Positions 15,571-37,329 of a DNA stretch of 45,884 nucleotides are shown here, in pieces (the stretch's first letter is position 1; every line of letters begins with the position of its first letter). Source of the DNA: Desulfurivibrio sp. (GTDB lineage: Bacteria; Desulfobacterota; Desulfobulbia; Desulfobulbales; Desulfurivibrionaceae); NCBI GenBank assembly GCA_013791995.1, contig VMSS01000230.1, forward strand, positions 1-45,884, given 5' to 3'. Position numbers and translations under genes: made by a program. The notes beneath the pieces were generated by a model. It searched no databases and had not been told where the DNA came from. It saw only the letters and a program-made list of their open reading frames with translations.

Positions 15571-16959
15571 TCAGGACAGATCAAATTTCTTCATCTGGTA
15601 CCGCAGGGCATCATAGGAAATCCCCAACAATTTGGCGGCCTTTGTCTGGTTAGATTTTGTCCGTTCCAGGGCCTGACGGATAAGATCCTTTTCCAATTCC
15701 TCCAGGGAAATTCCCTCTTCAGGCAGGATAATCCGCGAGGAAGCGGGCGACTCACCGGCAGCCCAACCGGCCAGATTCAGGTGGAGGTGCGCTCTGGTTA
15801 TCGTTTCCATCTCCTCAAGCACAACGCAGCGCTCGATGATATTGCGCAACTCCCGCACGTTTCCGGGCCAATCGTAGGACATCATGGCCTTTTCCGCCTC
15901 AACGGAAAAACCCTTGATACCCTTTTTGAGATATTTATTGGCAAAATAACGAAGAAAATGATTCGCAAGCAGCAGAATATCATCCCCCCGCTCCCTTAAG
16001 GGCGGCAACTCGACGGCAAAGGCGCTCAACCTGAAAAACAGATCCTTTCGAAACCCACCCTGTTCGGCTGCGGTTTTGAGATCCTTGTTGGTGGTCACGA
16101 TCACCGTCGCCTCCACGGGAAGATCAACGCTGCCCCCCAACCGCCGGACCTTTCGCTCCTCCAGCACCCGCAGAAGTTTCGACTGTAGATCAAGGCGCAT
16201 ATCCCCAATTTCATCAAGCAGCAGGGTTCCTTCCGCAGCCAGCTCAAAGATCCCTTTTTTATCGGCCCGCGCATCGGTAAAAGCGCCTTTCACATGGCCG
16301 AACAGCTCGCTTTCGATAAGATTTTCCGGCAAAGCCGTGCAGTTGACGGCAAAAAACGGACCTTGCCCAACTGCTTCCGCCTTCTGCCTTTGGCAGTGGA
16401 TATGCCGGGCAAGCACCTCCTTGCCGCTTCCGGACTCTCCGGTGATAAGAATGGTTTCCGCCCTGGCCTCCACCAGCTTATCCGCCTTGCGGAGGATTTC
16501 CGCAATGAGGGACGATTCTCCGACCAAGCCATGTTCGAAATAGGGGCAGGAATTTTTGCGGTGATAATCGATCTCCGCCTTGCGCCGGATGTTTTCGATG
16601 ATATTGCCGGTGATGATTTTTATCTCATCCAGATTGAACGGCTTGGTGAAATACTCCACCGCCCCGAGCTTCATGGCCCGGATGGCGGATTCGGCCGAGT
16701 CGTCGGCGGTGAGCATGACCACCTCCGCCTCGAGCCCTTCTTTTTTGATAGCGGCAAGGACATCAAAGCCGGTCATCTCCTCGGCAAGATCGACATCCAG
16801 AAAAACAATATCAGGCTGCCAGGCCAGGATGTTTGCGACAACATCCTGCGGGGTGGTTTGAAAATGCACATCATAGCCTTCGCTTCGCAAACCCCTGGCT
16901 AGCATTGTCACGATAAGCTCATCATCATCCACGGCAAAAATTCTTCCCCGGATCTTCAT
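15571..16959 (-). CDS. Sigma-54-dependent response regulator, NtrC family
   Basis: 462 residues: receiver (1-120, acidic DDD at 11-13, acceptor D55 in VFLDVDL), AAA+ domain (about 140-370; Walker A GESGSGKEV, Walker B GTLLLDEIGD) and a C-terminal Fis-type helix-turn-helix (NQTKAAKLLGISYDALRYQMKKF). The sigma-54 contact loop reads GAFTDA instead of the common GAFTGA; related variants exist and it need not abolish activity. It activates transcription at sigma-54 promoters when phosphorylated. The gene starts at ATG 16959, overlapping the stop of the heme-motif kinase gene by four bases (ATGA), so the two are a pair. A candidate target is the promoter at 20673. Confidence 0.93.
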   Translation of the reverse strand: MKIRGRIFAVDDDELIVTMLARGLRSEGYDVHFQTTPQDVVANILAWQPDIVFLDVDLAEEMTGFDVLAAIKKEGLEAEVVMLTADDSAESAIRAMKLGAVEYFTKPFNLDEIKIITGNIIENIRRKAEIDYHRKNSCPYFEHGLVGESSLIAEILRKADKLVEARAETILITGESGSGKEVLARHIHCQRQKAEAVGQGPFFAVNCTALPENLIESELFGHVKGAFTDARADKKGIFELAAEGTLLLDEIGDMRLDLQSKLLRVLEERKVRRLGGSVDLPVEATVIVTTNKDLKTAAEQGGFRKDLFFRLSAFAVELPPLRERGDDILLLANHFLRYFANKYLKKGIKGFSVEAEKAMMSYDWPGNVRELRNIIERCVVLEEMETITRAHLHLNLAGWAAGESPASSRIILPEEGISLEELEKDLIRQALERTKSNQTKAAKLLGISYDALRYQMKKFDLS

Positions 16960-18803
16960 GGGTTTTCATCCTCGATCAATTGTTCAACCGGAAGGGTAAT
17001 GGTAAAGATTGTACCCTGACCCACAACACTAACAACTTCGATCACGCCGTGGTGCTGCTCAACAAGACGTCTGGTGATCGCCAGCCCCAGTCCGCTTCCC
17101 TTGGGTTTGGTGGTGTAAAACGGCTCAAAAATCCTGGCGCGCGCCTCTTCGCTCAAACCTTTTCCCGTATCGGCAATCACCACCGCCACGGTTCCGTTCC
17201 GACCAGGCCTGGTGGTCACGGTGATTGTGCCGCCTTCCGGGGTTGCCTCCATGGCATTGAGCAGCAGGTTCAGGATGACCTGCTGCATCTGGGAAGGATC
17301 CGCCATGAGCATGGGCAGACCCGGATCAAGGTCGCGGACAAAATCCGGGCCCTTACTGCCGCTGGCCGCGTATTCCGGAGATTTAAGAAGCAGAACCGCA
17401 TTTTTCAAGGCGTTTTCAAGCTGCTGGTTCAGTTCGATTCGGGAAAAAACCGGCCGGGGCGTCCTGGCATAGTTGAGAAGGTTTTTCAGCAGGGCCTCGA
17501 TTCTCTGCACCTCCCCGATAATCCGGGAAAAAATCGTCTTGTCATCCGGGGACAGCGCCAGCTCGCTCATCAGGACTTCCATGGAGACCTTGATCCCGGC
17601 CAGGGGATTCTTGATCTCATGGGCCAGACCGGCAGCCATCTGACCCACCGTCGCCAGTTGCCGGGAACGCTGCAAAGCCGCTTCGGTCTGGTTGCGCACG
17701 GTCACATCCCGGTCAAAGGCGAGGATATACTTGCGCCCTTCAATCTCAAGTAACCCGGCGCGAACCTCAACCGGAAAAACAGTGCCGTCCTTTTTCCGAT
17801 GCTCTATCAACGCTTCAAGCCGTTTGCCTGCCAGCATGTCCCGAATGCGCGCCGGAGCTTTTGCCGCACTCTCAACAGTGTCCAGGTCCTGAATATACAT
17901 GGCGCGCAGCTCGTCGACCGTGTAGCCGTGCATGTCCGCCGCAGATTGGTTGGCTGCGATGATTCTCCCCGCAGTCTCGCCTTCCCCCTCGATAATGAAA
18001 ATGGCGTCGTCCGCCGATTCAAACAAAACCTTGTAGCGGCTCTGCTCGGCAACAACCGCATCACACTGTTTTTTCAACGAAACAGCCATGCTGTTGAATG
18101 CGCTGGCCAGGGAGCCGAACTCATCGGGAAGCTCTTCTTCGATGGTGTGGGTCAATTCCCCCTCCTTGATTTTTTCCGTTGCCACAATCAGCACGGAAAA
18201 AGAAGAGGAAAACCGTTTGACAAAAAAGAAGGTGAAAACAAGAAAGATAAAAGGCACGACAGTCACCAGCATCAGCAGGATATTTTTCATTCGCGAAATA
18301 TCCTGCCGGGCTCTGGAGATCTTCTGGTTAATGGTGTCGGAGGAAAGAACCACCAGCGTTTCAACTTCCTCAAGAAGCCGCACACCGGAGGATGATGCAT
18401 CTCCTATCTCTCTGGCCCGTCGTTCGTGATTTGCCCTGAACGTATACACCCGACTCGCTTTTTTCAGATACTCATCAATGCTTTGCTGTAAATAGGTTAC
18501 GCGCGGCATCATGGCTTCGTCGTGGTGACAGGATGTGCATGCTCTCCCAACGAGCTGCAACGCTTCGCCGTGCGCGACAAAATCCCCGACGTTCGTGCTG
18601 TGCGGAGAGGAGGAGAGGTACAAGTCCGCCTGGATGATTTTGACCTTGTTGCCCAGGTCGCCCCGCACGAATTCCATCTGATTCAAAGCGAGAATTTTCT
18701 CAAGCTTATCGCTCACCCGGACATTGGTGTGGGCAATATACATTCCGCCAACCCCGAAAAAAATAACCAGAAGCATGAAACCGATTATCGCTTTTATTCT
18801 CAT
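16956..18803 (-). CDS. Sensor histidine kinase with periplasmic c-type heme motif
   Basis: 615 residues from ATG 18803 (MRIKAIIGFM); the frame extends to 18869 but the short form begins directly with a membrane helix. Order: TM1 (about 5-24), periplasmic domain with CTSCH (C89, C92, H93), TM2 (about 174-195), HAMP, PAS (about 265-385), HisKA (GLAHEIKNPLAGIKVSMEVL, His near 415) and HATPase (ADTGKGLSEEA, GSGLGLAITRRLVEQHHG). CXXCH in an exported domain is the attachment motif for heme c, so the sensor may read redox state, oxygen or NO. It is cotranscribed with the NtrC-type regulator. Heme attachment is inferred from motif and location only. Confidence 0.92.
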   Translation of the reverse strand: MRIKAIIGFMLLVIFFGVGGMYIAHTNVRVSDKLEKILALNQMEFVRGDLGNKVKIIQADLYLSSSPHSTNVGDFVAHGEALQLVGRACTSCHHDEAMMPRVTYLQQSIDEYLKKASRVYTFRANHERRAREIGDASSSGVRLLEEVETLVVLSSDTINQKISRARQDISRMKNILLMLVTVVPFIFLVFTFFFVKRFSSSFSVLIVATEKIKEGELTHTIEEELPDEFGSLASAFNSMAVSLKKQCDAVVAEQSRYKVLFESADDAIFIIEGEGETAGRIIAANQSAADMHGYTVDELRAMYIQDLDTVESAAKAPARIRDMLAGKRLEALIEHRKKDGTVFPVEVRAGLLEIEGRKYILAFDRDVTVRNQTEAALQRSRQLATVGQMAAGLAHEIKNPLAGIKVSMEVLMSELALSPDDKTIFSRIIGEVQRIEALLKNLLNYARTPRPVFSRIELNQQLENALKNAVLLLKSPEYAASGSKGPDFVRDLDPGLPMLMADPSQMQQVILNLLLNAMEATPEGGTITVTTRPGRNGTVAVVIADTGKGLSEEARARIFEPFYTTKPKGSGLGLAITRRLVEQHHGVIEVVSVVGQGTIFTITLPVEQLIEDENP

Positions 18804-19062
18804 GGGATCACGGACCCCACAGCGGAGATCCGCGTTGCAGAAAGGTCTGCTCTGCGGTGTCTGCGGCACATCACCGAAATGGTTGTCTCAGAGCATCTTG
18901 CAACAACAGCAGAACACCCTTCGGCAGGACTCTCCTGAGCAACGTCGAAGGGCTCAAGGGGAGCAGTGGTAGCGGCGAAGGAAGCCATCCGGAAATCATT
19001 ATAGCTTCTTCCGTTCATGCTGAGCCTGTCGACGTACAATAAGTCATTTTGCAAGAGCCTCC
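18804..19062. repeat. Intergenic region with degenerate REP-like palindromes
   Basis: Contains CCCTTCGGCAGGACTCTCC followed by TGAGCAACGTCGAAGGGCTC (about 18918-18957) and CATGCTGAGCCTGTCGAC (19017-19034), decayed relatives of the TTCGACAAGCTCAG repeat. It separates the PhnD-like gene from the kinase gene on the same strand; no gene seen. Confidence 0.6.
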
Positions 19063-20004
19063 TCAGTCATTGAAATAATCATACGTCGCCAGATCCAAGC
19101 CAATGCGCTCGGCGTACTCAACAACCGGGGCGTAATCCTGCACCGTGGTTTCAATAAAACGGCGGGCGCCGAACTGGGCAAGGGCACGGCTCCCCTCCGC
19201 ATCCCGGTCCATGGCAAGAAGGCTGGCCTTAATGAGGTTTTTCAGGGCCGGGTCCAGATCGTGGCGAACAGATAGGGTGTTTACCGGAACGCGCGGAGAA
19301 GTCGCGAGAATCTCCAACTCATCCAGGACCCTGGGGTCCTCATTGGCAAGCCGGTAAAAAACAAGATCCTTAGCCGCGCCGAGGTCCGCCTTGCCGTGCA
19401 GAACATCCTTGATCGCATCTTCATGGGTGCCGCTGAAATAACTCTCCTTGAACCAGGTGCGATAATCCCGAATGCCTTGCGCCCGAAAGAAATACAACGG
19501 CAGCAACCAACCGGCCGTGGTCGCCTTGTCCACAAAAACAAAGACCTTGCCCTTCATATCCCGCGCCGTTTTTATCCCGCTGTCCTTTCTGGCAAAGACC
19601 ATGCCGGTATAGGTGGAGACCCCGTTGTCGTATTCAGGCCGCACCAGAGGCTCAACCCCGAGCCTGTTGATTGCCAGTGCCCCGGTAAAGCTGCCGAAAA
19701 AGGCTCCGTCCATGCCCTCGTCCTGAAAATTGCTCAGGATATTGCCGTAGCGGGAAAGGATTTTGAGTTCAACTGCAGCCCCGGTTTTCAGGGAGAGATA
19801 CTGGGCAATGGATTCGTAGCGCTTTTTCTGGACAAAGATATCCAGTTCCGGGATGAGACCGATGACAATCTTTGTGGCTGGGGGAGGGGAGGGTGACTTG
19901 GCGGCAGGGGCGGCGGGCTGCTCATCAGTGCAGCCTGTTAAAAAGAACAGGAAAAGGCAGCACAGCAGGATTTGGATTCCGGATCGGGCACAAAAAAAAC
20001 GCAT
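19063..20004 (-). CDS. PhnD-like periplasmic substrate-binding lipoprotein
   Basis: 313 residues from ATG 20004 with GGAG upstream; the frame reaches 20070 but the extension is not signal-like. The N-terminus has a basic start, a hydrophobic stretch and lipobox FLTG-Cys25, then a Pro/Ala linker. The mature part is a type II periplasmic binding fold of the PhnD/phosphonate-phosphite group: VIGLIPELDIFVQKKRYESIAQYLS, FFGSFTGALA, KTARDMKGKVFVFVDKATTAGWLLP and GTHEDAIKDVLHGKADLGAA. No permease or ATPase gene is nearby, so it may serve as a ligand-sensing partner of the kinase downstream rather than a transporter part; this is inference. Ligand unknown. Confidence 0.85.
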   Translation of the reverse strand: MRFFCARSGIQILLCCLFLFFLTGCTDEQPAAPAAKSPSPPPATKIVIGLIPELDIFVQKKRYESIAQYLSLKTGAAVELKILSRYGNILSNFQDEGMDGAFFGSFTGALAINRLGVEPLVRPEYDNGVSTYTGMVFARKDSGIKTARDMKGKVFVFVDKATTAGWLLPLYFFRAQGIRDYRTWFKESYFSGTHEDAIKDVLHGKADLGAAKDLVFYRLANEDPRVLDELEILATSPRVPVNTLSVRHDLDPALKNLIKASLLAMDRDAEGSRALAQFGARRFIETTVQDYAPVVEYAERIGLDLATYDYFND

Positions 20005-20145
20005 ACACGTCTCCAGTTCACTATGTTGGATTCGCAACAACTCGGGATGCGCGACAAGCAGATACCTCAAAAGGGCTCAGCACCAGCAGCATCAATGACG
20101 ATGAACTCCCAAGATATTGGCCACTTGCAATAGAAAAATACCCTT

Positions 20146-20340
20146 CGACAGGGCTCTCCTGAGCTTGTCGAAGGGCTCAGGGCGATCGGTAGTCATCTTG
20201 AAATCATGTCATGCAAGTTTCTTCCGTTCATGCTGAGCCCTTCGACCAAGCTCAGCAAAGTTCTGCCGAAGCACAACAAAGCCTTTTGCAAAAGCTGCAC
20301 AAGAAACCCTCCGTTCGCCCTGAGCCTGTCGAAGGGCTGC
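20146..20340. repeat. REP-like repeat cluster, family 1
   Basis: Three copies: CCTTCGACAGGGCTCTCC with TGAGCTTGTCGAAGGGCTCA (about 20143-20181), CATGCTGAGCCCTTCGACC with AAGCTCAGC (20229-20257), and CCGTTCGCCCTGAGCCTG (20310-20327) followed by TCGAAGGGCT. Each can form a hairpin and shares the core found at 5595 and 27361. Confidence 0.7.
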
Positions 20341-20587
20341 TTTTTCAAATCCACCACACCCTGATGGCCTCAAAAAAGTCCTCTCAATAAAAACCGACCC
20401 ATAATCTCCACAACTATCCGAAAACACAGTGGCAACCTGTAAACGAGACTACCAGCCGTCCCACATCTATGCAAGACGCAATTCACGCCATCCCCGATGA
20501 CCGGACATGCCGCGCCGACCCCCCATCGCACCCCTCAAAAACCTAAATCTGGGCATATACCCAACCCGAACTGGTCATTTCCCCAAA

Positions 20588-20688
20588 TTCGCGCGAACAC
20601 ACCGACACATACGCCCGGCCGACAACCACCTATCTCACTGTATTTGCGCGTTTGCAATTTTATTTGCACCCATGGCACATTCTTCGCA
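20588..20688 (+). promoter_or_regulatory. Candidate sigma-54 promoter with upstream palindrome
   Basis: TGGCAC (20673-20678), five bases, TCGCA (20684-20688): GG and GC are ten bases apart, as in -24/-12 promoters, with one departure from TTGCA. A perfect palindrome TTCGCGCGAA at 20588-20597 lies about 85 bases further up, where an NtrC-type activator could bind. It precedes the decaheme cytochrome gene by about 90 bases. Confidence 0.5.
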
Positions 20689-20778: not shown

Positions 20779-21705
20779 ATGCGACACAACGTCATACGAC
20801 AGCTGAGGAGGTATGCGCGGACCGCTGTTTTGTGTTTGAGCGCGGCCGGGGTCTTGGTGGTGCTCGGCGGAGCAACACCGGCCATTTCCGCACCAAACGA
20901 AGGAGGATCGCCATGCGCTGACTGCCACGACAAGGCAACTGCCAGCTTCAACTCATCCTATCACGCCAAGGCGTGGAAGGGTGCCAATGGCTGCCAAGCC
21001 TGTCACGGTTCCACCGACCAACATCTCAACACCGAGCAAGCAAAAAACACCATCATCTCATTCAGCAAGGACGGGGGCCGCTCGGCCAAGGAGCTCACCG
21101 CCCAGTGCCTGAGCTGCCATTCATCCACCAACCATGTAGCTTTTTGGGAAACCAGTCGGCATAAGGCCGCGGGCATGTCCTGCGCCAGTTGTCATACCGG
21201 CCACTCCAATCTCCCTAAAAACCTGAAGATGCCGCAAACCGAACTCTGTTTTTCCTGCCACAAGGATGTCCGGTCCCAGGTCAACCGCCAGTCGCACCAT
21301 CCCATCAAAGAAGGCAAGGTTTCCTGCACCGACTGCCATGATCCGCACGGCGGCTTCGGTAACAAGATGATCAAGGCGGACAGCGTGAACGAACTCTGCT
21401 TCAAATGTCATGCCGACAAACGCGGCCCATTCATGTGGGAACATCCACCGGTCGAAGAAAACTGTATGATATGCCACACTCCCCATGGCAGCAGCCACAC
21501 AAAACTGCTGAGCAAGAAAAGTCCTAATATCTGTCAGAGCTGTCATGATTATTCTTTCCATCCCTCCACTCCTTATGGTGCCAATGGGAGCTTTACCAAT
21601 GGCACGCCAGTTCGGCAGTTTGTCGGACGCAACTGTCTCAATTGCCACACCAATGTTCATGGAAGCAATGGTGCTGGATCACAAGGACTTCGCTTTGTGC
21701 GCTAA
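20779..21705 (+). CDS. Decaheme c-type cytochrome, DmsE/MtrA-like
   Basis: 308 residues from ATG 20779 with GAGGAGGAAGGA upstream. Signal peptide about 1-38 (RTAVLCLSAAGVLVVLGG, cleavage near AISA). Ten CXXCH motifs: CADCH, CQACH, CLSCH, CASCH, CFSCH, CTDCH, CFKCH, CMICH, CQSCH, CLNCH. Length and heme number match MtrA/DmsE/PioA cytochromes, which sit inside an outer-membrane barrel and carry electrons between periplasm and cell surface. The porin gene follows 16 bases later, supporting this. No MtrC-type surface cytochrome or terminal reductase gene lies in the window, so the outside electron partner is unknown. Confidence 0.95.
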   Translation: MRHNVIRQLRRYARTAVLCLSAAGVLVVLGGATPAISAPNEGGSPCADCHDKATASFNSSYHAKAWKGANGCQACHGSTDQHLNTEQAKNTIISFSKDGGRSAKELTAQCLSCHSSTNHVAFWETSRHKAAGMSCASCHTGHSNLPKNLKMPQTELCFSCHKDVRSQVNRQSHHPIKEGKVSCTDCHDPHGGFGNKMIKADSVNELCFKCHADKRGPFMWEHPPVEENCMICHTPHGSSHTKLLSKKSPNICQSCHDYSFHPSTPYGANGSFTNGTPVRQFVGRNCLNCHTNVHGSNGAGSQGLRFVR

Positions 21706-21721
21706 AGGAGGAGGGATACCC

Positions 21722-23869
21722 ATGAGCAGAATAAATCAAGGGAGTTGGGAAATGAAAAAAACATATATTCCGCTGGCGGCTATGCTGGCCGTGCTGCTTC
21801 CCCTAACCGGGTATGCTGCGGAAAATACGGCTGGGGGAGAAATCGAATTGGCTCCCACCTTTGCGAATGTGGATGGCAGCAAAGCCAAATTCAACGAGTA
21901 TCGGGAGGTTGAGGATGGAGTCTACGGCGGTATCCGCCTCTGGAAGGAAACCGACGATTTTTTTATCAAGCTGCAGGCCGATGATATTCTGTACGACACT
22001 CAGAACTATCGCATAGATGGCGGCAACTACGGCAAGTACAAATTCAACCTCTATTACGATGAGATTCCCCATAACCTGACCTTCGATGCCAGGACACCCT
22101 TATCCGGGGCAGGTGGCGATACCCTGACCTACACCGGCGCCGGAACTCTCAACGCCGCCAGCCCGGCCGTCTCCACCTGGAACACCTTCGACTACAAGGT
22201 AGATCGTAAAAAAGGAGGAGGCGGCATCCGTCTCGACCTGCTGAAACCGTATTATCTTGATGTCGCATTCAGCCAGGAAGACCGCGAGGGGATCAAACCC
22301 ACTGCCACCTCCTGGAACGCTGCCGCCGGGGGCGGATCCCGAAGGGTGCTTGAAATGCCCGAGCCGGTTGATTACGTCACCGACAGCCTGAAAGCGGAGT
22401 TCGGCTATGGCCTGAATCCTTTCTTTGGTTCGGTGTCCTACCAGTACAGCCAGTTCGACAACGCCCATAATAACCTGTATTACGAACATCCCAATACCGC
22501 CGGTACCATGGAAGCGATTTCCCTGGCTCCGGACAATGACTTTTACAAGTTTGCCTTCAAAGGCAAAGCGCTCATGCCGCTCAGCAGCGCCTTGAGCGTC
22601 AACGCCAGCCGGGGAGTGGCCGATTCTTCATTCGACCTCCGTTCACAATACCTAAGCGATATTGGTGCGGTGGTGCCCATTACCCTGTCGGACTCCGTTT
22701 TTGACGGCAAGGTGGTGACAACCAACTACGACGTGGTGCTAACTTCAAGCCCGCTTTCATACGCCTCCGGCAAGATTTTTTACAAGTATTACGAGAAGGA
22801 AAACAAATCCGACCAAATAACAGTGACCGATGGAGCCACCGTCTTCCACAACCATCTGTTCGGGTACGACAAAGAGACGATGGGCGGCGAAGTCAGCTTT
22901 AAATTGCCCGCCGATGTTTCTCTGACGCCGTCGTATAAACATATAAAAGTAAAAAGGGAGCGGGGCGATTTGCCCGAGTCCAAGGATAACATCTACGGCC
23001 TGAGCGGACGCTGGACCGGCCTCGAACACTTGGCGGTCAACGCCGGCTACGAACGGTTGGACCGCAGCGCCGACTGGCAACAGCTCACTGCGGTGATTGC
23101 CGCCGACCAAGCCTTTACCAGTGCCGTTGAGCCGTTTATCCGGCGCTATGATGCCGCGCCCCTTGATCGGGACACCTACAAGTTATCGGTGAATATCTAT
23201 CCCACCGATAACCTCAACTTCGGCCTCGGTTACCGTTACAAAAAAACAGAATATTCGGATGAAACAATCCTCGGTCTGCGTGACGAAAAAAGCAATGCCT
23301 TTGATTTGTCTGCGGATTACACCTTGGCAAAGGTGACCTTGGCAGGCTATTTCTCTTACGAGAAAACCGAATATTATCAGTTTCAACGGCGACTTGGTAA
23401 TAACACCCTTTTTGTTAACCCTCTAACGGATGTAACGAACGACACCAACGCCAACTGGGATGTTAACGAGGAAAACAAAAATTATGATTATGGCGTTTCC
23501 CTTGAGGTAAAGATCGTGCCAGATAAATGGCGGGTGAAGATGCAGTATGATTATGTCCGGTCCGATGGCACCGCCGACATGACCATTTTCGAAACCGCCG
23601 CAATACCGGCAGGATACACAAATGACACCCTGGATCACCAGGCCTGGGATGATTACAAAAAGGATTCGTTTCAGATCAAGGCAATATACGACATAACCGA
23701 GAGTTTGGTCTCAACCGTTGGTTATGCCTACGAAAAATATGAATACAACGATAATGCCTTGGATAATTACGATTACAAAATAAACTCCGCCGATTATTTG
23801 AGTGGAGCTTACAAAGATCAGTCCTACGAAGCGAATGTTGTTTTTGCGAGTTTGAAGTATTCCTTCTAA
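21722..23869 (+). CDS. MtrB/PioB-family outer-membrane porin
   Basis: 715 residues from ATG 21722, which has AAAGGAGGAGGG eight bases upstream; an in-frame ATG at 21752 (MKKTYIPLAAM) also has a fair site and would give a more classical signal peptide. After cleavage near GYAAE the protein is rich in alternating aromatic/polar strands and ends in a C-terminal Phe (ASLKYSF), as outer-membrane beta barrels do. Length and partnership with a decaheme cytochrome identify an MtrB/PioB type sheath. Unlike Shewanella MtrB, I see no N-terminal CXXC. Same operon as the cytochrome; a strong terminator follows. Confidence 0.92.
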   Translation: MSRINQGSWEMKKTYIPLAAMLAVLLPLTGYAAENTAGGEIELAPTFANVDGSKAKFNEYREVEDGVYGGIRLWKETDDFFIKLQADDILYDTQNYRIDGGNYGKYKFNLYYDEIPHNLTFDARTPLSGAGGDTLTYTGAGTLNAASPAVSTWNTFDYKVDRKKGGGGIRLDLLKPYYLDVAFSQEDREGIKPTATSWNAAAGGGSRRVLEMPEPVDYVTDSLKAEFGYGLNPFFGSVSYQYSQFDNAHNNLYYEHPNTAGTMEAISLAPDNDFYKFAFKGKALMPLSSALSVNASRGVADSSFDLRSQYLSDIGAVVPITLSDSVFDGKVVTTNYDVVLTSSPLSYASGKIFYKYYEKENKSDQITVTDGATVFHNHLFGYDKETMGGEVSFKLPADVSLTPSYKHIKVKRERGDLPESKDNIYGLSGRWTGLEHLAVNAGYERLDRSADWQQLTAVIAADQAFTSAVEPFIRRYDAAPLDRDTYKLSVNIYPTDNLNFGLGYRYKKTEYSDETILGLRDEKSNAFDLSADYTLAKVTLAGYFSYEKTEYYQFQRRLGNNTLFVNPLTDVTNDTNANWDVNEENKNYDYGVSLEVKIVPDKWRVKMQYDYVRSDGTADMTIFETAAIPAGYTNDTLDHQAWDDYKKDSFQIKAIYDITESLVSTVGYAYEKYEYNDNALDNYDYKINSADYLSGAYKDQSYEANVVFASLKYSF

Positions 23870-23932: not shown

Positions 23933-24277
23933 GCCACCCCCCACGAACGGATTCCCAATTCGTGCAATAATATTAACACTGCCGGAGCCACCAGAGCGAG
24001 ATGGACAGACTCAGGGAAATCGACACGTTTAGAAAATCCCCTTCGTGCAGCGCCTGCTGAAAAACAGTTATTACACGTTCATCGACTTTAGCGTTGCACA
24101 GCTTCTTTCTTGCGACAAACAACCAGCCCAGCCGGCCACAAGACACAGTCCGCGCGGCGCGTTCTTCAAAGCACCTTACGCCGAATTTCACTTACCTTCA
24201 TCTTCCCATATTGCATTGCCCATAAATTCCCCCTCTTCTCCACGAGTAACTGCGTGCGAATGCGCCGAATTTTTCCC
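23933..24277. other. Intergenic region without recognisable gene
   Basis: About 345 bases between the cytochrome-porin terminator and the EF-G promoter. I find no convincing gene, RNA or repeat in it. Confidence 0.5.
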
Positions 24278-24358: not shown

Positions 24359-24440
24359 AATGCCGGTTTGCCAAGGTATGGTGCCTTGACCGGCGCCAGC
24401 CGTAACCGCACACATGCACGAATGGAGTGGAACACTTACC

Positions 24441-26519
24441 ATGAGAGACATTACGAAAGTCCGCAATATTGGAATCAGCGCCCATATCGATTCGGGAAAA
24501 ACCACCCTGACCGAGCGCATTCTTTTTTATACCCAGCGTATCCATACCATCCATGAAGTACGGGGCAAGGACGGCGTCGGCGCCAAAATGGACTCCATGG
24601 AGCTGGAGCGGGAACGGGGCATCACCATCTGTTCCGCCGCCACCTATTGCGACTGGAAAGACCATGCCGTCAACATCATCGATACCCCCGGCCATGTGGA
24701 TTTCACCATCGAAGTTGAGCGGGCCCTGCGCGTGCTCGACGGCGCGGTGCTGATTCTCTGTTCCGTTGGCGGCGTTCAGTCCCAGTCCATCACGGTTAAC
24801 CGGCAGATGACCCGTTACCGGGTTCCCCGCGTCGCCTTTATCAATAAATGTGACCGAACCGGCGCCAATCCGGAAAGGGTTATCAAACAGCTCCGCGACA
24901 AGCTGGCCCTCAACGCGGTGCCCATCCAGGTGCCCATGGGTCTCGAAGGCGAGATGCAGGGGCTTATCGATCTGGTTCGGATGAAGGCCGTCTATTTTGA
25001 TGGAGAAAACGGCGACAAACTCCGCGAAGAGGAGATCCCGGCCCAGTACAAGGAAGAATGCGACATCAAGCGGGAAGAGATGCTGGACGCAGTTTCCATG
25101 TTCTCCGATGAATTGATGGAGGCCGTGCTGGAAGGCACCCCCACCGAAGAAATGATCATGGACGCGATCCGCAAGGGGACCCTGGCCCTTGAATTCACCC
25201 CGGTGATGATGGGAACCGCTTACAAAAATAAGGGTGTGCAACTCCTGCTCGACGCAGTAATCGACTACCTGCCCTGCCCGACCGATGTTGAAAATTTCGC
25301 CCTGGATCTGGATCATGAAGAGGCCGAAGTCAAGGTGAGCAACATCTCGAGCGACCCCTTGCTGGCCCTGGCCTTCAAACTTGAGGACGGTCGGTACGGG
25401 CAGCTTACCTATGTCCGCACCTACCAAGGCACCCTGAAAAAAGGCGACTCCATCGTCAATGTCCGGACCGGAAAGAAGGCCAAGGTTGGCCGGTTGGTGC
25501 GGATGCATTCCGACGATATGGAAGAGATCGATGAAGCAGGGGCCGGCGATATCGTCGCTCTGTTCGGCATTGATTGCGCCTCCGGCGACACCTTCACCAG
25601 CGGCAGCGATTACAACTTCTCCATGACCTCCATGCATGTGCCGGCGCCGGTTATCTCCCTCTCCATCACCCCGATAGATAACAAGGCCCAGGACAACATG
25701 TCCAAGGCCCTGAACCGCTTCACCAAGGAAGACCCCACCTTTAAGACCTATGTGGACGCCGAAACCTTGGAAACCATCATCTCCGGCATGGGCGAGCTGC
25801 ATCTTGACGTCTACGTCGAACGGATGAAACGCGAATACAAGGCCGAAGTAACCGTGGGCGCGCCCCAGGTTGCTTACCGGGAGACGATCACCCAGCGGGC
25901 CGAGTTCAACTATACCCACAAGAAACAGACCGGCGGTTCCGGCCAGTTCGGTCGGGTTGCCGGCTTCCTTGAGCCTCTGGAAGAGGGCGAATATGAATTC
26001 GTCGACAAGATTGTCGGCGGCTCTGTGCCCCGGGAATATATCCCCTCCTGCGACAAGGGCTTCCAGAAGTGCATGGACAAAGGGGCTCTCGTTGGCGCCC
26101 ATGTCACCGGCGTCCGCTGCACCATCACCGATGGCGCTTCCCATGCCGTGGACTCTTCGGACATCGCCTTCCAGTTGGCCGCCCAGGGCGGATTCAAAGA
26201 AGCATACATGAAGGCCAAACCGATGATCATGGAGCCCATCATGAAGGTCGCAGCCGAGGGACCCTCCGAGTTCCAGGGCTCGATCATGGGCAGCCTGAAC
26301 CAGCGGCGCGGCATAATTATCGGCACCAACGAGGAAGAGGCTTACACGGTCATTGAGGCCGAGGTTCCGCTTTCCGAGATGTTTGGCTATTCAACCGATC
26401 TTCGGTCCTTGACCCAGGGCAAGGCAGAATTTACCATGGAATTTGCCACCTACAGGCAAGTGCCCAAGAGCGTTGCCGAAGAGTTGATCACCAAGGCTCA
26501 GAAAAAAGACAAAAAATAG
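24441..26519 (+). CDS. fusA: Elongation factor G, spd/mitochondrial EF-G1 type
   Basis: 692 residues from ATG 24441 ([22 protein letters not shown]). The GTPase that moves tRNA and mRNA on the ribosome. G motifs: [28 protein letters not shown]. Domains follow in normal order: G, II (about 300-390), III, IV ([11 protein letters not shown]) and V ([44 protein letters not shown]). Phrases such as [35 protein letters not shown] and [13 protein letters not shown] are those I associate with mitochondrial EF-G1 and its bacterial relative spdEFG1. It stands outside a str operon, fitting a separate paralogue. Whether the organism also has a classical EF-G cannot be seen here. Confidence 0.95.
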
Positions 26520-32294: not shown

Positions 32295-33290
32295 ATGAGA
32301 ATCCTGAGTCCATTCATCGCAGTGTTGGCGCTTATCGCGGTCGCCCTGGTGGCCGCCCAGGTGCCGGGTGGGCAGGCGCTGATGGGGATCATCTTGCCCT
32401 ATCTTGCCTTTGCCCTCTTTTTAGGAGGTGTTGTCTATCGCGTAGTGCAATGGGCAAAATCTCCCGTTCCCTTCCGGATTCCGACCACCTGTGGTCAGGC
32501 CAACTCCCTGCCTTGGATCAAACAGAACAAGATCGATTGCCCCTCCACCAAGCTCGGGGTTATCGCCAGGATGATCCTTGAGGTCGCTCTGTTCCGCTCC
32601 CTGTTCCGCAACACCAAGGCGGAAATGTATGAGGGGCCTAAACTGGTGTATGGCTCCAGCAAATTTCTCTGGCTGTTCGCCCTGCTGTTCCACTATTCTT
32701 TTCTGGTCATTGTTCTCCGTCATATGCGGTTGTTCATGGATCCGGTTCCCGGATTTGTGGCGGCACTTGAGTTCGGCGACGGCTTCCTCCAGATCGGCTC
32801 GCCGGTTTTCTACCAGACCGATGCCCTTTTTCTCGGGGCCATCGCCTTTCTCTTCCTTCGCCGGATATTTCTTGCCAACATCCGGTATATCTCCCTGCCC
32901 GCTGACTACTTCCCGCTGCTCCTGATCTTCGGCATCGCCCTGACCGGCATCCTGATGCGCACCGTTTTCAGAGTTGACGTGGTCGCGATCAAGCAGCTGA
33001 CCCATGGCCTGGCCACCTTCTCTCCAGCCATTGCCGGACAGATTGGATCGATCTTCTTCATCCACATCTTCCTGGTCTGCACACTGCTGATCTACTTCCC
33101 ATACAGCAAGCTGATGCACATGGCCGGCGTCTTCATGAGCCCTACCCGGAACATGATCAACAACAGCCGGATGGTCCGGCACATCAATCCGTGGAATGAT
33201 CCCAACATCAAGCCGCATTCTTACGCTGCCTACGAGGACGAGTTCAGGGAGTTCATGAAGGAAAGCGGAATACCCGTTGAGAAGGAATAA
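32295..33290 (+). CDS. dsrM: DsrM, membrane cytochrome b subunit
   Basis: 331 residues, NarI-like membrane subunit of the DsrMKJOP complex, which links the membrane quinone pool to sulfite reduction through DsrC. About six membrane helices, starting with ILSPFIAVLALIAVALVAAQV; heme-b ligand His residues are likely among FHYSFLVIVLRHMRLF and IFFIHIFLVCTLLIYF. Start ATG 32295 with GAGGT upstream. dsrK follows after five bases. Assignment rests on family sequence and the intact five-gene order. Confidence 0.95.
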   Translation: MRILSPFIAVLALIAVALVAAQVPGGQALMGIILPYLAFALFLGGVVYRVVQWAKSPVPFRIPTTCGQANSLPWIKQNKIDCPSTKLGVIARMILEVALFRSLFRNTKAEMYEGPKLVYGSSKFLWLFALLFHYSFLVIVLRHMRLFMDPVPGFVAALEFGDGFLQIGSPVFYQTDALFLGAIAFLFLRRIFLANIRYISLPADYFPLLLIFGIALTGILMRTVFRVDVVAIKQLTHGLATFSPAIAGQIGSIFFIHIFLVCTLLIYFPYSKLMHMAGVFMSPTRNMINNSRMVRHINPWNDPNIKPHSYAAYEDEFREFMKESGIPVEKE

Positions 33291-33295
33291 AAACG

Positions 33296-34942
33296 ATGGC
33301 AATCATGAAAGCAGATAAACTCGGTATAAGCGTAGCGACGGCCCCGTCCATGATGACCGGGGCTGTTCCGAAAAATGAGTGGTGGGATGTTCCGGCTGAG
33401 TTCACGCCCGGCAAGTATTGCTATCCCGCCAAACCAGAGATCCACGAATACCATCAGAAGAGCCTACCGAAGGAGTTGGGCGGACAGCCTCGGGCATGGG
33501 ATCCGGAGAGCGACGACTGGAAGTTGCCCGAGAACTGGAAGGAGATCATCCTCCAAGGCCTCAAGGAACGGCTGGACAAATTCCGCTCCCTCAAGATCTT
33601 CATGGATTGCTGCGTACGCTGCGGCGCCTGTGCGGATAAATGTCACTTCTTCCTGGGCACCGGCGATCCGAAAAACATGCCGGTTCTCCGGGCCGAACTC
33701 TTGCGGGCGGTATATCGCAACGACTTTACCCTGGGCGGCAAAATCCTGGGCAAGATGGCCGGTGGACGGGAGATGTCCTTCGAAGTGCTGAAGGAATGGT
33801 TCATGTATTTCTATCAGTGCACCGAATGCCGCCGCTGCTCGGTGTTCTGTCCTTACGGTATTGATACCGCCGAGATCACCATGATGGGCCGCGAGCTGCT
33901 CCATCTGGTAGGGGTCAATACCAACTGGATTCTGGAGCCGGCAGCAAACTCGAACCGCACCGGCAACCACATGGGACTCCAGCCCCACACCTTTAAAGAC
34001 AACATCATCTATCTCTGCGACGATATCGAGGAAATCACCGGTATCCGCATCGAGCCGACCTTTAACCGCAAAGGCGCGGAAGTGCTGTTCATCACCCCTT
34101 CGGCGGACGTGTTCGCCGAGCCCGGCATTTACACGGCCATGGGCTACCTGCTGCTCTTCCACCACATCGGTCTGGATTACACTTTCAGCACCTACGCCTC
34201 GGAGGGCGGCAACTTCGGACTCTTCACCAACAACGAAATGATGAAGAAGCTCAACGCCAAGATGTATGCCGAGGCCAAGCGACTTGAGGTCAAATGGATC
34301 CTGGGCGGCGAATGCGGACACATGTGGCGGGTGCTCCATCAGTATATGGACACCATGAACGGCCCGGCCGACTTCCTGCAAGTGCCGACCTCGCCGATCA
34401 CCGGGACGGTCTTCGAAAATGCCGCCTCCACCAAAATGGTCCATATCAGCGAGTTCACCGCGGATCTGATCAAGCACGGAAAGCTGAAACTTGACCCGAA
34501 ACGCAACGATCACCGGGTTGCAACCTATCATGACTCCTGCAACCCGGCCCGGGCCATGGGCTTGTTGGATGAGCCACGGTATGTCTTGCAGAATGTTTGC
34601 AATAATTTTCACGAGATGCCGGAAAACACCATCCGTGAGTCAACCTTCTGCTGCGGCAGCGGCACCGGCTTGAACACCGATGAAATTATGGAACTGAGAA
34701 TGCGGGCAGGGTTGCCAAGGGCCAATGCGGTCAAATATGTGCGCGAGAAGCATGAGGTCAATATGCTTTCCTGCGTATGCGCCATCGACCGCGCCACCTT
34801 GACGAGTCTGATGAACTACTGGAATCCCGACGTGGAGGTCTGCGGCGTGTCCGAGCTGGTTGGCAACGCTCTGGTCATGGAGGGAGAAAAAGAGCGTGAA
34901 ACGGGTCTCCGTTTTGAGCCACTTGCAGGAATGGAGGGCTGA
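33296..34942 (+). CDS. dsrK: DsrK, cytoplasmic iron-sulfur subunit (HdrD-like)
   Basis: 548 residues. Two ferredoxin-type [4Fe-4S] sites: C106-x2-C109-x2-C112-x3-C116 (CVRCGACADKC) and C175-x2-C178-x2-C181-x3-C185 (CTECRRCSVFC). The C-terminal half has CCG-type cysteine motifs (GGECGH, HDSCNPARAMG, TFCCGSGTG), which hold the special catalytic cluster in HdrB/D proteins. DsrK is thought to reduce the DsrC trisulfide or disulfide. Cytoplasmic, bound to DsrM. Start MAIMKADK at 33296; a second ATG four codons on is possible. Confidence 0.96.
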   Translation: MAIMKADKLGISVATAPSMMTGAVPKNEWWDVPAEFTPGKYCYPAKPEIHEYHQKSLPKELGGQPRAWDPESDDWKLPENWKEIILQGLKERLDKFRSLKIFMDCCVRCGACADKCHFFLGTGDPKNMPVLRAELLRAVYRNDFTLGGKILGKMAGGREMSFEVLKEWFMYFYQCTECRRCSVFCPYGIDTAEITMMGRELLHLVGVNTNWILEPAANSNRTGNHMGLQPHTFKDNIIYLCDDIEEITGIRIEPTFNRKGAEVLFITPSADVFAEPGIYTAMGYLLLFHHIGLDYTFSTYASEGGNFGLFTNNEMMKKLNAKMYAEAKRLEVKWILGGECGHMWRVLHQYMDTMNGPADFLQVPTSPITGTVFENAASTKMVHISEFTADLIKHGKLKLDPKRNDHRVATYHDSCNPARAMGLLDEPRYVLQNVCNNFHEMPENTIRESTFCCGSGTGLNTDEIMELRMRAGLPRANAVKYVREKHEVNMLSCVCAIDRATLTSLMNYWNPDVEVCGVSELVGNALVMEGEKERETGLRFEPLAGMEG

Positions 34943-34947
34943 TAGCC

Positions 34948-35328
34948 ATGTACGGGAAAGGAAGAATCATACCTGCGTTAATACTGTTCTTGGGCCTCAT
35001 GACAGCCCCGATGTGGTTTAAATCCGGGGATGTCAGCAAATTGCCTAAACCTGAAAAACCAAAGGACTACACGGAGTGTGTCGCGCCAACTCAGTTCATG
35101 CGTACCGCGCATATGCAACTGCTTAACGAATGGCGCGACGACATCCTGCGCGAGGGCGGCTCCCGAACCGGGAAAACCGCCAACGGCACCGAATATGTAC
35201 GGAGCCTGCAGAATGGCTGCATGAAATGTCACAGCGACAAAAAGAAATTCTGTGACGACTGCCACAACTATGCCTCCGTGAAACCGTATTGTTGGGATTG
35301 TCATCTCCAGCCGAAGGAGGCGATGTAA
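34948..35328 (+). CDS. dsrJ: DsrJ, periplasmic triheme cytochrome c
   Basis: 126 residues. N-terminal hydrophobic anchor (IIPALILFLGLMTAPMWF) directs export and likely stays as a membrane anchor. Three CXXCH motifs: C91-H95 (CMKCH), C102-H106 (CDDCH) and C115-H119 (CWDCH). C44 in YTECVAPT may be the cysteine that ligates one heme in the family. Strong GGAGG precedes ATG 34948. Sits between dsrK and dsrO with gaps of 5 and 1 bases. Confidence 0.95.
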   Translation: MYGKGRIIPALILFLGLMTAPMWFKSGDVSKLPKPEKPKDYTECVAPTQFMRTAHMQLLNEWRDDILREGGSRTGKTANGTEYVRSLQNGCMKCHSDKKKFCDDCHNYASVKPYCWDCHLQPKEAM

Positions 35329-35329
35329 C

Positions 35330-36148
35330 ATGAATAGCAAGAGAAGAGATTTTTTGAAGATTGCCGGGCTTACCGCCATTGCCGGCATTGCCGCACCCTC
35401 GGCCTTTAATACGCTGCTTAAGGGCGAAGCAAACGCCTCATCCGCTCCTGCCGGCGGGCACGGAGCGGCGGCGGTCACCGGCAAACGTTATGGCATGGTC
35501 ATTGATGTCAAAAAGTTTACCGAGAACCCCGGCCTGGCGCAACAATGCGTAACTGCCTGCCACACCGTCCACAATGTTCCGGACTTCGGCAACAGGAAGG
35601 ATGAAATCAAGTGGATCTGGGTTGAATCCTACAACCATGTTTTTCCGGAGAACACCCAGTACAAGCGGCCGGACTCCCTCAAGGAAATGCCCATCCTGGC
35701 CCTGTGCAACCACTGTGACAACCCGCCCTGCGTTCGGGCCTGCCCCACCAAGGCCACCTATAAGACCAAGGACGGCATCGTGGCCATGGACTACCATCGT
35801 TGCATCGGCTGCCGGTTCTGTATGGCCGCCTGCCCTTATGGCGCCCGGAGCTTCAACTGGCGCGACCCGCGCGGCAAGGATGCCAATGGTCAGCCGTTTA
35901 TCAAGGAGTTGAACCCAAAGTTCCCGGCCCGGATGCGCGGGGTTGTTGAGAAATGCAATTTCTGCACCGAACGTCTGGCCATCGGTCAGATTCCGGCCTG
36001 TGTCGAAGTCGCAACCCAAACAAAGGCCCTTGTCTTCGGAGACATGAATGATCCCGAGTCAGAGATCAGCCAGGTACTGAAGACATCCTTTACCATTCAG
36101 CGGAATCCTGCAATAGGGACACATCCATCCCTCTTCTATATTATTTGA
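35330..36148 (+). CDS. dsrO: DsrO, periplasmic iron-sulfur subunit with Tat signal
   Basis: 272 residues. Tat-type signal (MNSKRRDFLKIAGLTAIAGI), so it is exported folded. The mature part has four ferredoxin-type clusters' worth of cysteines: CVTACHTVHN, CNHCDNPPCVRACP, CIGCRFCMAACPYG and CNFCTERLAIGQIPAC. Such proteins pass electrons between the NrfD-type DsrP and the DsrJ cytochrome. RBS GGAGG ten bases before ATG. Same operon as neighbours. Confidence 0.95.
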   Translation: MNSKRRDFLKIAGLTAIAGIAAPSAFNTLLKGEANASSAPAGGHGAAAVTGKRYGMVIDVKKFTENPGLAQQCVTACHTVHNVPDFGNRKDEIKWIWVESYNHVFPENTQYKRPDSLKEMPILALCNHCDNPPCVRACPTKATYKTKDGIVAMDYHRCIGCRFCMAACPYGARSFNWRDPRGKDANGQPFIKELNPKFPARMRGVVEKCNFCTERLAIGQIPACVEVATQTKALVFGDMNDPESEISQVLKTSFTIQRNPAIGTHPSLFYII

Positions 36149-36159
36149 GGTGAAAGATC

Positions 36160-37329
36160 ATGATTGAAAAAGCATTAAAAGGAAGCACGGGGTACTGGGT
36201 ATGGATGCTCTTCCTGCTCTCCATAATGGGTGTGGGTGGTCTCAGCTATGTCCAGCAATTCAACTACGGCCTGGGCATCACCGGCATGAGCCGGGATGTA
36301 ACCTGGGGGATCTACATCTCCCAGTTCACCTTTCTGGTGGGTGTCGCGGCAGGCGGCTTGATGCTGGTCTTGCCGTATTATATCCATAACTACAAAGCGT
36401 TCGGCCGCATCGTTATTCTTGGCGAGTTCATGGCCATCGCCGCCATCGCCATGTGCCTGATGTTCATCATCGCCGACTTGGGCCAGCCCATGCGGGCGCT
36501 GAATGTTCTGCTCCATCCCACCCCCAACTCCATGTTGTTCTGGGATATGATCGTCTTAAACGGCTATCTGTTCCTGAACATCCTCTGCGGCTGGGTGGTT
36601 TTGCAGTCCGAGTACAAAGGAATCAAGTACCCAAGGTGGATCAAGCCTTTTATCTACCTTTCCATCCCTTGGGCAGTCAGCATCCATACCGTCACCGCCT
36701 TCCTGTACTGCGGTCTTCCGGGGCGTCATTTCTGGCTCACCGCCATTCTGGCCCCTCGATTTTTGGCCTCCGCCTTTGCAGCGGGACCGGCTTTGCTCAT
36801 GGTCATCGCCATGGTTCTCAAGCGTACCACCAAGTTTGACGTGGGCCGCGAGGCGCAGGATAAACTGGTGACCATTATCGGCTATGCCGCAATGCTCAAC
36901 TTTTTCTTCCTGGGCTGTGAATTCTTTGTTGCGTACTACAGCCAGATCCCCGGCCATATGCATACCCTGGACTACCTCTTCTGGGGTCTTGGCCATGGCG
37001 ATCAGGTATTCAACAATCTGGTGCCCTTCATGCGCGCTTCCGTGGTCATGGGATTGGCGGGTATTGCTCTGATCTTTGTCTCACGGGCCAAGCAGTCCGA
37101 TGGGCTTCTGGTCGTTTCCTGCCTGCTCATCTTCTTTTCCTTCTGGATCGACAAGGGCCTCGGCCTGGTCCTTGGCGGCTTTGTTCCCACCCCCATGGAC
37201 TATGTAACCGAGTACTACCCCAGCGCTCAGGAACTCGGCATTACCGCCGCCATCTGGGCCACGGGTTTCTTCATTCTCTCCATCCTCTATAAGGTGGCAA
37301 TCAGCGTAAAGCTTGAGAAAGACGCTTAA
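36160..37329 (+). CDS. dsrP: DsrP, NrfD-type membrane quinone-interacting subunit
   Basis: 389 residues with about ten membrane helices, of the NrfD/PsrC family. The helices begin at YWVWMLFLLSIMGVGGLSYV. Conserved-looking points are GITGMSRDVTWGIYISQFTF and HTVTAFLYCGLPGRHFW. The protein exchanges electrons with menaquinone and passes them to DsrO/DsrJ. Start ATG 36160 preceded by GAGGTGAAAG. It ends the operon; a strong terminator follows. Confidence 0.95.
   Translation: MIEKALKGSTGYWVWMLFLLSIMGVGGLSYVQQFNYGLGITGMSRDVTWGIYISQFTFLVGVAAGGLMLVLPYYIHNYKAFGRIVILGEFMAIAAIAMCLMFIIADLGQPMRALNVLLHPTPNSMLFWDMIVLNGYLFLNILCGWVVLQSEYKGIKYPRWIKPFIYLSIPWAVSIHTVTAFLYCGLPGRHFWLTAILAPRFLASAFAAGPALLMVIAMVLKRTTKFDVGREAQDKLVTIIGYAAMLNFFFLGCEFFVAYYSQIPGHMHTLDYLFWGLGHGDQVFNNLVPFMRASVVMGLAGIALIFVSRAKQSDGLLVVSCLLIFFSFWIDKGLGLVLGGFVPTPMDYVTEYYPSAQELGITAAIWATGFFILSILYKVAISVKLEKDA

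Follow-up and report, generated by a model that had tools for sequence, protein, structure and literature searches.

An MtrAB-type outer-membrane conduit beside a predicted haem-sensing sigma-54 three-component system in Desulfurivibrio

A Desulfurivibrio contig encodes a two-gene outer-membrane electron conduit that is probably switched on by regulatory genes lying beside it. The stretch analysed here (the window) is the entire 45,884-nt contig C176 of a 2.96-Mb, 274-contig, 95% complete genome. It carries a decaheme cytochrome gene followed by an MtrB/PioB-family porin gene and, divergent from them, a trio of genes for a binding lipoprotein, a sensor kinase and a sigma-54 regulator. We read the pair as an MtrAB-type conduit switched on by the adjacent trio, a redox- or acceptor-responsive three-component system, for outward electron export, and give this reading a probability of about 0.74. 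Computation establishes the identities of both conduit proteins and the conservation of the operon, the trio, the paired DNA motif and its spacing. A preliminary description of the DNA had recognised the minimal two-gene conduit, and that part stands, but it overlooked the adjacent trio, the predicted binding sites and the promoter that would tie the operon to the extracellular electron transfer (EET) genes of the order. The features of the system are these:

20779..21705 (+): MtrA/DmsE/PioA-type decaheme c-type cytochrome, 308 amino acids (309-codon open reading frame, ORF), with an N-terminal signal sequence
21722..23869 (+): MtrB/PioB-family outer-membrane porin, 715 amino acids, no cysteine, C-terminal phenylalanine
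20550..20585 (+): predicted response-regulator sites, palindromes TGGGCATATACCCA (20550) and TGGTCATTTCCCCA (20572), 22 bp apart
20673..20688 (+): sigma-54-like promoter TGGCACATTCTTCGCA, 10 of 12 consensus positions, GG and GC invariant
19063..20070 (-): PhnD/PtxB/ArrX-like periplasmic binding protein, PF12974 187.5 bits, lipobox-like LTGC, putative TTG start
16956..18869 (-): sensor histidine kinase, two transmembrane helices around a periplasmic domain, then HAMP, PAS, HisKA and HATPase
15571..16959 (-): sigma-54-dependent response regulator, with receiver, AAA+ and Fis-type helix-turn-helix

The conduit genes

Sequence and structure searches support well the identity of the two proteins as a barrel and the cytochrome embedded in it. 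The ten CXXCH motifs of the preliminary description all lie within the cytochrome ORF, in a single frame between 20914 and 21634. Against TIGR03508 (cut-off 192.2) the protein reaches 245.8 bits, and its solved-structure match is MtrA of 6R2Q (E=1.1e-54, residues 42-300), a chain mislabelled in that file as another protein. About ten further histidines (62, 82, 128, 173, 174, 190, 222, 236, 261 and 294) are invariant or nearly so in an alignment of 14 relatives and would suit bis-histidine ligation, which would require them.

The porin begins 16 bases beyond the cytochrome stop codon on the same strand, and the two genes are adjacent and co-directional in about 15 loci compared. It exceeds the cut-offs of TIGR03509 (257.0 bits against 240.05) and PF11854 (299.8 bits), and a search against solved structures matched it to MtrB of 6R2Q (E=4.5e-16). 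In an AlphaFold2 model based on 15 relatives we counted 26 long strands from DSSP, and the model's best PDB match is 6r2q_B (E=2e-31, TM-score 0.80 on the target). MtrB itself is described as a barrel of 26 strands (PMC7198977), and the barrel proposed earlier is well supported. The porin also lacks the N-terminal CXXC, as first reported, and indeed any cysteine. This absence is uninformative because homologous porins of the family, with at most one cysteine each, have no CXXC either; we rejected it as a sign of electron direction on the same ground.

As machinery, the pair adds a further member to the known MtrAB/PioAB/MtoAB kind. By analogy with that family, the cytochrome would be secreted and loaded with haem, the barrel would sit in the outer membrane, and electrons would cross that membrane through the cytochrome threaded in it. 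Among 27 genomes of the family, 14 encode a conduit porin, and nearly all of these belong to the genus of the window. In these 14 the porin always follows a decaheme where the sequence is complete and a third multihaem gene is never adjacent, which agrees with the minimal two-gene path first described. By identity to the window's porin they form three groups, the first like it (about 39-46%), another at about 30% and a third, with longer porins, near 24%. A second, divergent MtrAB-like set, with porins of 822-842 amino acids and neither trio nor palindrome pair, is present in the same genus (L074, L076, L077, L081).

Known conduits resemble the pair to differing degrees. PioAB of Rhodopseudomonas and MtoAB of Sideroxydans, compared by description, are two-component conduits without a surface decaheme, as here. 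Both are linked to Fe(II) oxidation. The Shewanella MtrCAB core (6R2Q, PMC7198977) shares the decaheme and the 26-strand barrel encoded by adjacent genes; here, in contrast, there is no MtrC in the operon or found in the genome, the porin lacks CXXC, and a sigma-54 trio is adjacent. Desulfobacterota mtrAB clusters with mtrC absent or elsewhere have already been reported (Shaw et al. 2025, PMC12133095), and the available part of that survey treats mostly Desulfuromonadia that also have mtrC and does not discuss regulators. With mtrAB lacking an adjacent mtrC thus on record, what appears to be new here is the regulatory surroundings, namely the CxxCHH kinase and its predicted targets.

The regulator trio and its DNA signature

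The trio reads in the order binding lipoprotein, kinase, sigma-54 regulator. Nine genomes of the genus have it next to the conduit, where it is either divergent or co-directional and immediately downstream; in two of the nine a contig break lies between trio and conduit. A PDB search returned PtxB, HtxB, ArrX and AioX as solved relatives of the binding protein. ArrX and AioX are sensor subunits of three-component systems. No ABC permease gene was found beside the binding-protein gene, and we propose that the lipoprotein is a sensor subunit.

The kinase carries a candidate haem site in its periplasmic domain. Its true start probably lies at 18803, and the domain contains CTSCHH (codon at 18539), part of a CxxCHH motif that is invariant in the periplasmic domains of 14 aligned orthologues and would bind haem covalently. 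The domain has no Pfam model and is modelled as a helical bundle (mean predicted local distance difference test, pLDDT, 77). Foldseek gave no match at E<=0.001, and fold relatives are suggestive only: by TM-score, with weak E-values, the closest are the kinase sensor domain 4K0D and the LytS sensor of the XylFII-LytS complex. In the latter (5XSJ; TM-score 0.80 to the trio sensor model, Foldseek E 0.04) a helical-bundle kinase sensor docks a periplasmic binding protein, but that system senses sugar and has no haem and no sigma-54.

ArrXSR and AioXSR are alike in clustering a PhnD-superfamily binding protein, a kinase and a sigma-54 response regulator. The trio may work like them by analogy, yet we do not file it as one: its kinase has the CxxCHH periplasmic domain, and its apparent targets are EET cytochromes rather than arsenic enzymes. 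GSU2506/GSU2507 of Geobacter sulfurreducens likewise combine a sigma-54 regulator with a kinase and, judging by locus numbering, presumably lie near omcS. Deletion of that kinase raises the omcB transcript (PMC11077965); it is described as Cache_1 plus HAMP (PMC10599522), unlike the CxxCHH bundle of the trio kinase. A system of the trio type is apparently undescribed, no description having been found in the searchable literature, which omits most subscription papers. One genome (G011) holds a second, divergent trio copy, with a 42-haem cytochrome directly upstream of it (L093 10415-13540, -).

A distinctive DNA signature lies between the trio and the conduit. TGGN2AN2TN2CCA matches the two palindromes and nothing else in the whole 45.9-kb window. 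The sigma-54-like site TGGCACATTCTTCGCA follows, 123 nt from where the pair starts and 106 nt ahead of the cytochrome ATG. A GG at -24, a GC at -12, a candidate upstream enhancer and a candidate activator, the hallmarks of a sigma-54 promoter, can all be assigned at this locus, and the genome encodes RpoN (rpoN).

The palindrome pair follows the kinase across genomes. Allowing up to one mismatch, it occurs in 12 of 27 family genomes (14 places) with zero control matches; all 12 have the trio, and the pair is missing from all 13 in which a trio-type kinase was not detected. The two kinase-bearing genomes that lack the pair are G010, in which the second palindrome is degenerate and the sigma-54 site is kept, and G021, whose contig stops short of the site. 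In a set of 258 genomes from the order, the exact pair was found in 13 of 60 with the kinase sensor domain versus 1 of 198 without (p=2e-8); at one mismatch, some matches in other genera are an unrelated repeat. The joint motif, defined as the pair plus a sigma-54-like site 105-137 nt on, occurs once in the window and at more than 20 trio-linked loci, mostly with 119-125 nt from pair to site. Searches of control strand (643 kb), trio-less loci (243 kb) and 30 Markov-resampled windows found no instance of it.

Further elements accompany the signature. Possible autoregulation is suggested by L075, L084 and L087, where the interval between the binding-protein and mtrA-like genes contains another sigma-54-like site (TGGTAGTCTTTTTGCA/T). 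It is oriented towards the trio and lies 119-130 nt away on the far side of the same palindromes. In the window, the gap that separates the conduit promoter from the binding-protein gene holds palindromic repeats like CCCTTCGACAAGCTCAG (20140-20340), with related pieces in L083.

Targets, exchange and genome setting

The signature precedes cytochrome genes of several families. The pair with a downstream sigma-54-like site stands before mtrA-like genes in the window and in L075, L079, L082, L083, L084, L087 and L123, before an OmcA/MtrC-family lipoprotein gene in L091, and before OmcS-like hexahaem genes in L092, L124, L127, L162, L164, L173, L175 and L179; at some of these loci it lies more than 1 kb ahead of the gene. 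In G023 the hexahaem beside the trio is clearly homologous to OmcS (E=2.8e-123). Because the same circuit fronts OmcS-like, nanowire-type cytochromes and OmcA/MtrC-like ones in relatives, the conduit would belong to an EET regulon. Outside the family, a cytochrome with at least four haem motifs lies near 13 of 20 trio loci versus 2 of 20 control windows (p=4e-4), the trio loci having been picked by kinase match, the controls being arbitrary stretches of similar genomes and the loci not being phylogenetically independent. For the possible metal, electrode or interspecies exchange first suggested, the trio's apparent association with EET genes favours outward transfer to extracellular acceptors.

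Not all occurrences follow this pattern. L165, L166, L168, L171 and L174 (family f2) hold trio orthologues with sigma-54-like sites nearby and no multihaem gene on their short contigs. Palindrome pairs without the joint spacing precede PilZ/PAS sigma-54 activator genes in L125 (7212-9383, -) and L128 (10015-12042, +), and such activators could form a second regulatory tier.

A trio locus of Desulfurivibrio alkaliphilus, of the same family, includes a gene with published induction data. According to the available part of the report on its EET set (Nature 2025, PMC12545173), DA_402, an OmcS homologue, rises more than 100-fold on ferrihydrite and an OmcA homologue also rises; that part mentions no histidine kinase or response regulator. 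Both published reverse-transcription quantitative PCR primers for DA_402 match G002 exactly, giving an 84-bp amplicon at L092 6625-6708. This match identifies the family, to which G002 belongs, as Desulfurivibrionaceae. L092, the trio locus of this species, holds OmcA-like genes and two tandem OmcS-like genes, the second being DA_402. The first of these has the canonical palindrome pair and an 11/12 sigma-54 site upstream, and DA_402 has a 12/12 sigma-54 site of its own. The OmcS-like paralogue and the binding-protein, kinase and regulator genes occupy L092 8176-14185.

Comparison of sister genomes suggests that the conduit has been swapped in place, promoter and regulators staying. One flank used to mark the locus in relatives lies outside the system:

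24414..26519 (+): elongation factor G (EF-G) gene, TIGR00484 1009 bits, a fixed flank

In G016, the closest relative at the locus, flanking DNA is 83-91% identical as far as 20783, which lies four bases inside the cytochrome gene. Similarity at this level resumes at 24198, within the terminator region, and the intervening DNA aligns over no more than a single 295-bp piece, with 69% identity. The regulator and binding protein of the two genomes are 97% and 93% identical, whereas the cytochromes share 49% and the porins 34%. The G018/G009 pair behaves likewise (regulator 98%, EF-G 100%; cytochrome 59%, porin 52%), and the G009/G014 pair is reversed (cytochrome 93%, porin 90%; regulator 81%, kinase 67%). 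From these contrasting identities we infer that the conduit is a module exchanged beneath a fixed promoter and regulator set.

The window is one contig of 274, so an absence from it cannot be read as an absence from the genome. Within it, as the preliminary description held, there is no other multihaem surface protein, and the sole further group of haem motifs belongs to DsrJ (34948-35328). The porin at 21722-23869 is the only MtrB-family member in the genome. A genome-wide search for surface multihaem cytochromes, which that description had put forward, returned large multihaem proteins of up to 26 CXXCH but no OmcA/MtrC-family member above cut-off (best 21.7 bits against 209.3, in a genome 95% complete), and for this reason we file the system as MtrAB rather than MtrCAB. 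Among the matches listed, other multihaem proteins include at least those with 26, 16, 14, 12, 11 and 10 CXXCH; the survey drew on searches and sequence stretches, so that these counts are lower bounds and some cytochromes may be missed. Also among the matches listed, the 26- and 16-motif proteins are side by side on C10, those with 14, 10, 6 and 5 are on C234, NrfHA is on C46, and proteins with 12 and 11 are on C186 and C1. The 26/16 pair adjoins at L058 (G000 contig C10, 23-3141, -), and relatives have similar pairs in L125 and L126. The 5- and 6-haem proteins of C234 were considered as OmcS and rejected: the pentaheme has no PDB match and the best own-genome match to a true OmcS homologue is weak (E=6.6e-10), so they are only remotely OmcS-like. 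A search with a paired-CXXCH DNA pattern of fixed spacing gave no match, and a direct scan of genome contigs with the cytochrome gave no more than four loci.

The sulfur-metabolising host first proposed is upheld by a complete DsrMKJOP operon at 32295-37329, each subunit above its equivalog cut-off. This is in keeping with the sulfide-oxidising, iron-respiring physiology that the available part of the published account gives for D. alkaliphilus (PMC12545173). Right downstream of the operon, a 785-amino-acid ORF (37567-39924, +) fuses CysK/CysM, a cysteine synthase (residues 15-305), to a cysteinyl-tRNA synthetase (318-779).

Alternative readings and proposed working

Several observations weigh against control of the conduit by the trio. 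The relatives G007 and G020 have the conduit without trio or motif, and the conduit can therefore work under other control. Some trio loci lack the joint motif, and some, those of the cable-bacteria-like family f2 included, have no nearby cytochrome (L165, L166, L168, L171 and L174); the trio therefore has further targets as well. Adjacency of trio and conduit within the genus partly reflects shared descent. In D. alkaliphilus, the palindromes before DA_402 are imperfect and differently spaced, the canonical pair fronting its tandem paralogue instead; and because no MtrB-family porin was found in that genome, as against one here, the induction data concern the regulatory locus, not the conduit. 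In the present organism, both trio-conduit control and haem binding are predicted from sequence.

An ordinary MtrAB conduit with functionally unlinked neighbours, its palindromes being unrelated repeats, would explain why conduits of groups B and C lack the trio in some genomes (L074, L076, L077, L081, L085, L086, L088). We give this hardly any credence, since the joint motif is absent from all controls, keeps a fixed geometry at cytochromes of three unrelated families and is retained while the conduit coding sequence is replaced. The trio could instead be an oxyanion regulator of the ArrXSR/AioXSR sort, responding to arsenate, arsenite or phosphite and near cytochromes by accident, as the binding protein's solved relatives (PtxB, HtxB, ArrX, AioX) and a gene order of the same kind as arrXSR and aioXSR might suggest. 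No arr, aio, ars or phosphite genes were identified in the window or in the inspected trio loci, whose neighbours are partly annotated; multihaem cytochromes are enriched at trio loci, and the palindrome pair sits at cytochrome promoters. The mature binding protein also lacks a cysteine like the one that AioX uses for arsenite. On this evidence an oxyanion regulator is distinctly improbable.

Other alternatives concern where the electrons go. The conduit might supply a terminal reductase at the cell surface in the way that DmsEF of Shewanella supplies DmsAB; the model that the cytochrome matches, TIGR03508, is named for DmsE, and a dimethyl sulfoxide-type oxidoreductase may be encoded elsewhere in the genome. 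TIGR03508 also covers MtrA, however, MtrA is the best solved relative, and none of about 15 loci has a reductase gene in the operon, which makes this very unlikely. Inward flow in the fashion of PioAB and MtoAB, with Fe(II), a partner cell or a cathode as electron source and periplasmic carriers as recipients, finds a parallel in the two-gene operon without an adjacent MtrC-like gene and in the porin without CXXC. Sequence by itself cannot tell direction, but the same circuit appears to govern OmcS-like cytochromes, and what induces the D. alkaliphilus locus, in the part of the report available (PMC12545173), is ferrihydrite, which accepts electrons rather than donating them. We regard inward flow as unlikely.

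We strongly infer that the trio regulates the conduit, probably for outward export, and propose a working in which haem binding, ligand sensing, DNA binding, transcription, electron direction and external partner are all predicted. The PhnD/ArrX-like lipoprotein would present a ligand or state to the kinase, which would sense through haem bound covalently at CxxCHH in its periplasmic helical domain and respond to redox state or ligand. The sigma-54 regulator would then bind both palindromes and activate the sigma-54 promoter about 123 nt away. The outward electron path would thereby be induced when soluble acceptors no longer suffice or an extracellular one is at hand. Sheathed in the 26-strand barrel, the cytochrome would span the outer membrane as a wire of haems. 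Sulfur oxidation (DsrMKJOP) would most likely supply the electrons, and their destination outside the cell would be an acceptor such as Fe(III) oxide or a cytochrome encoded elsewhere; the outermost haem could contact a mineral or shuttle directly, or that cytochrome.

A wider reading, which we lean towards by a little, is that the haem-sensing sigma-54 three-component system is a dedicated EET switch of the Desulfobulbales, with one DNA signature, interchangeable outputs (MtrAB conduits, OmcA/MtrC-like and OmcS-like cytochromes) and a conduit traded laterally under a fixed promoter. The trio would link outer-membrane conduits and OmcS-like cytochromes into one regulon, and its DNA signature predicts further EET genes from DNA alone. 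In-place exchange suggests that the outer-membrane wire is a modular, laterally traded part. The trio and its signature open to experiment the question of how Desulfobulbales that oxidise sulfur detect an available extracellular electron acceptor, and D. alkaliphilus is the culturable species in which to test it.

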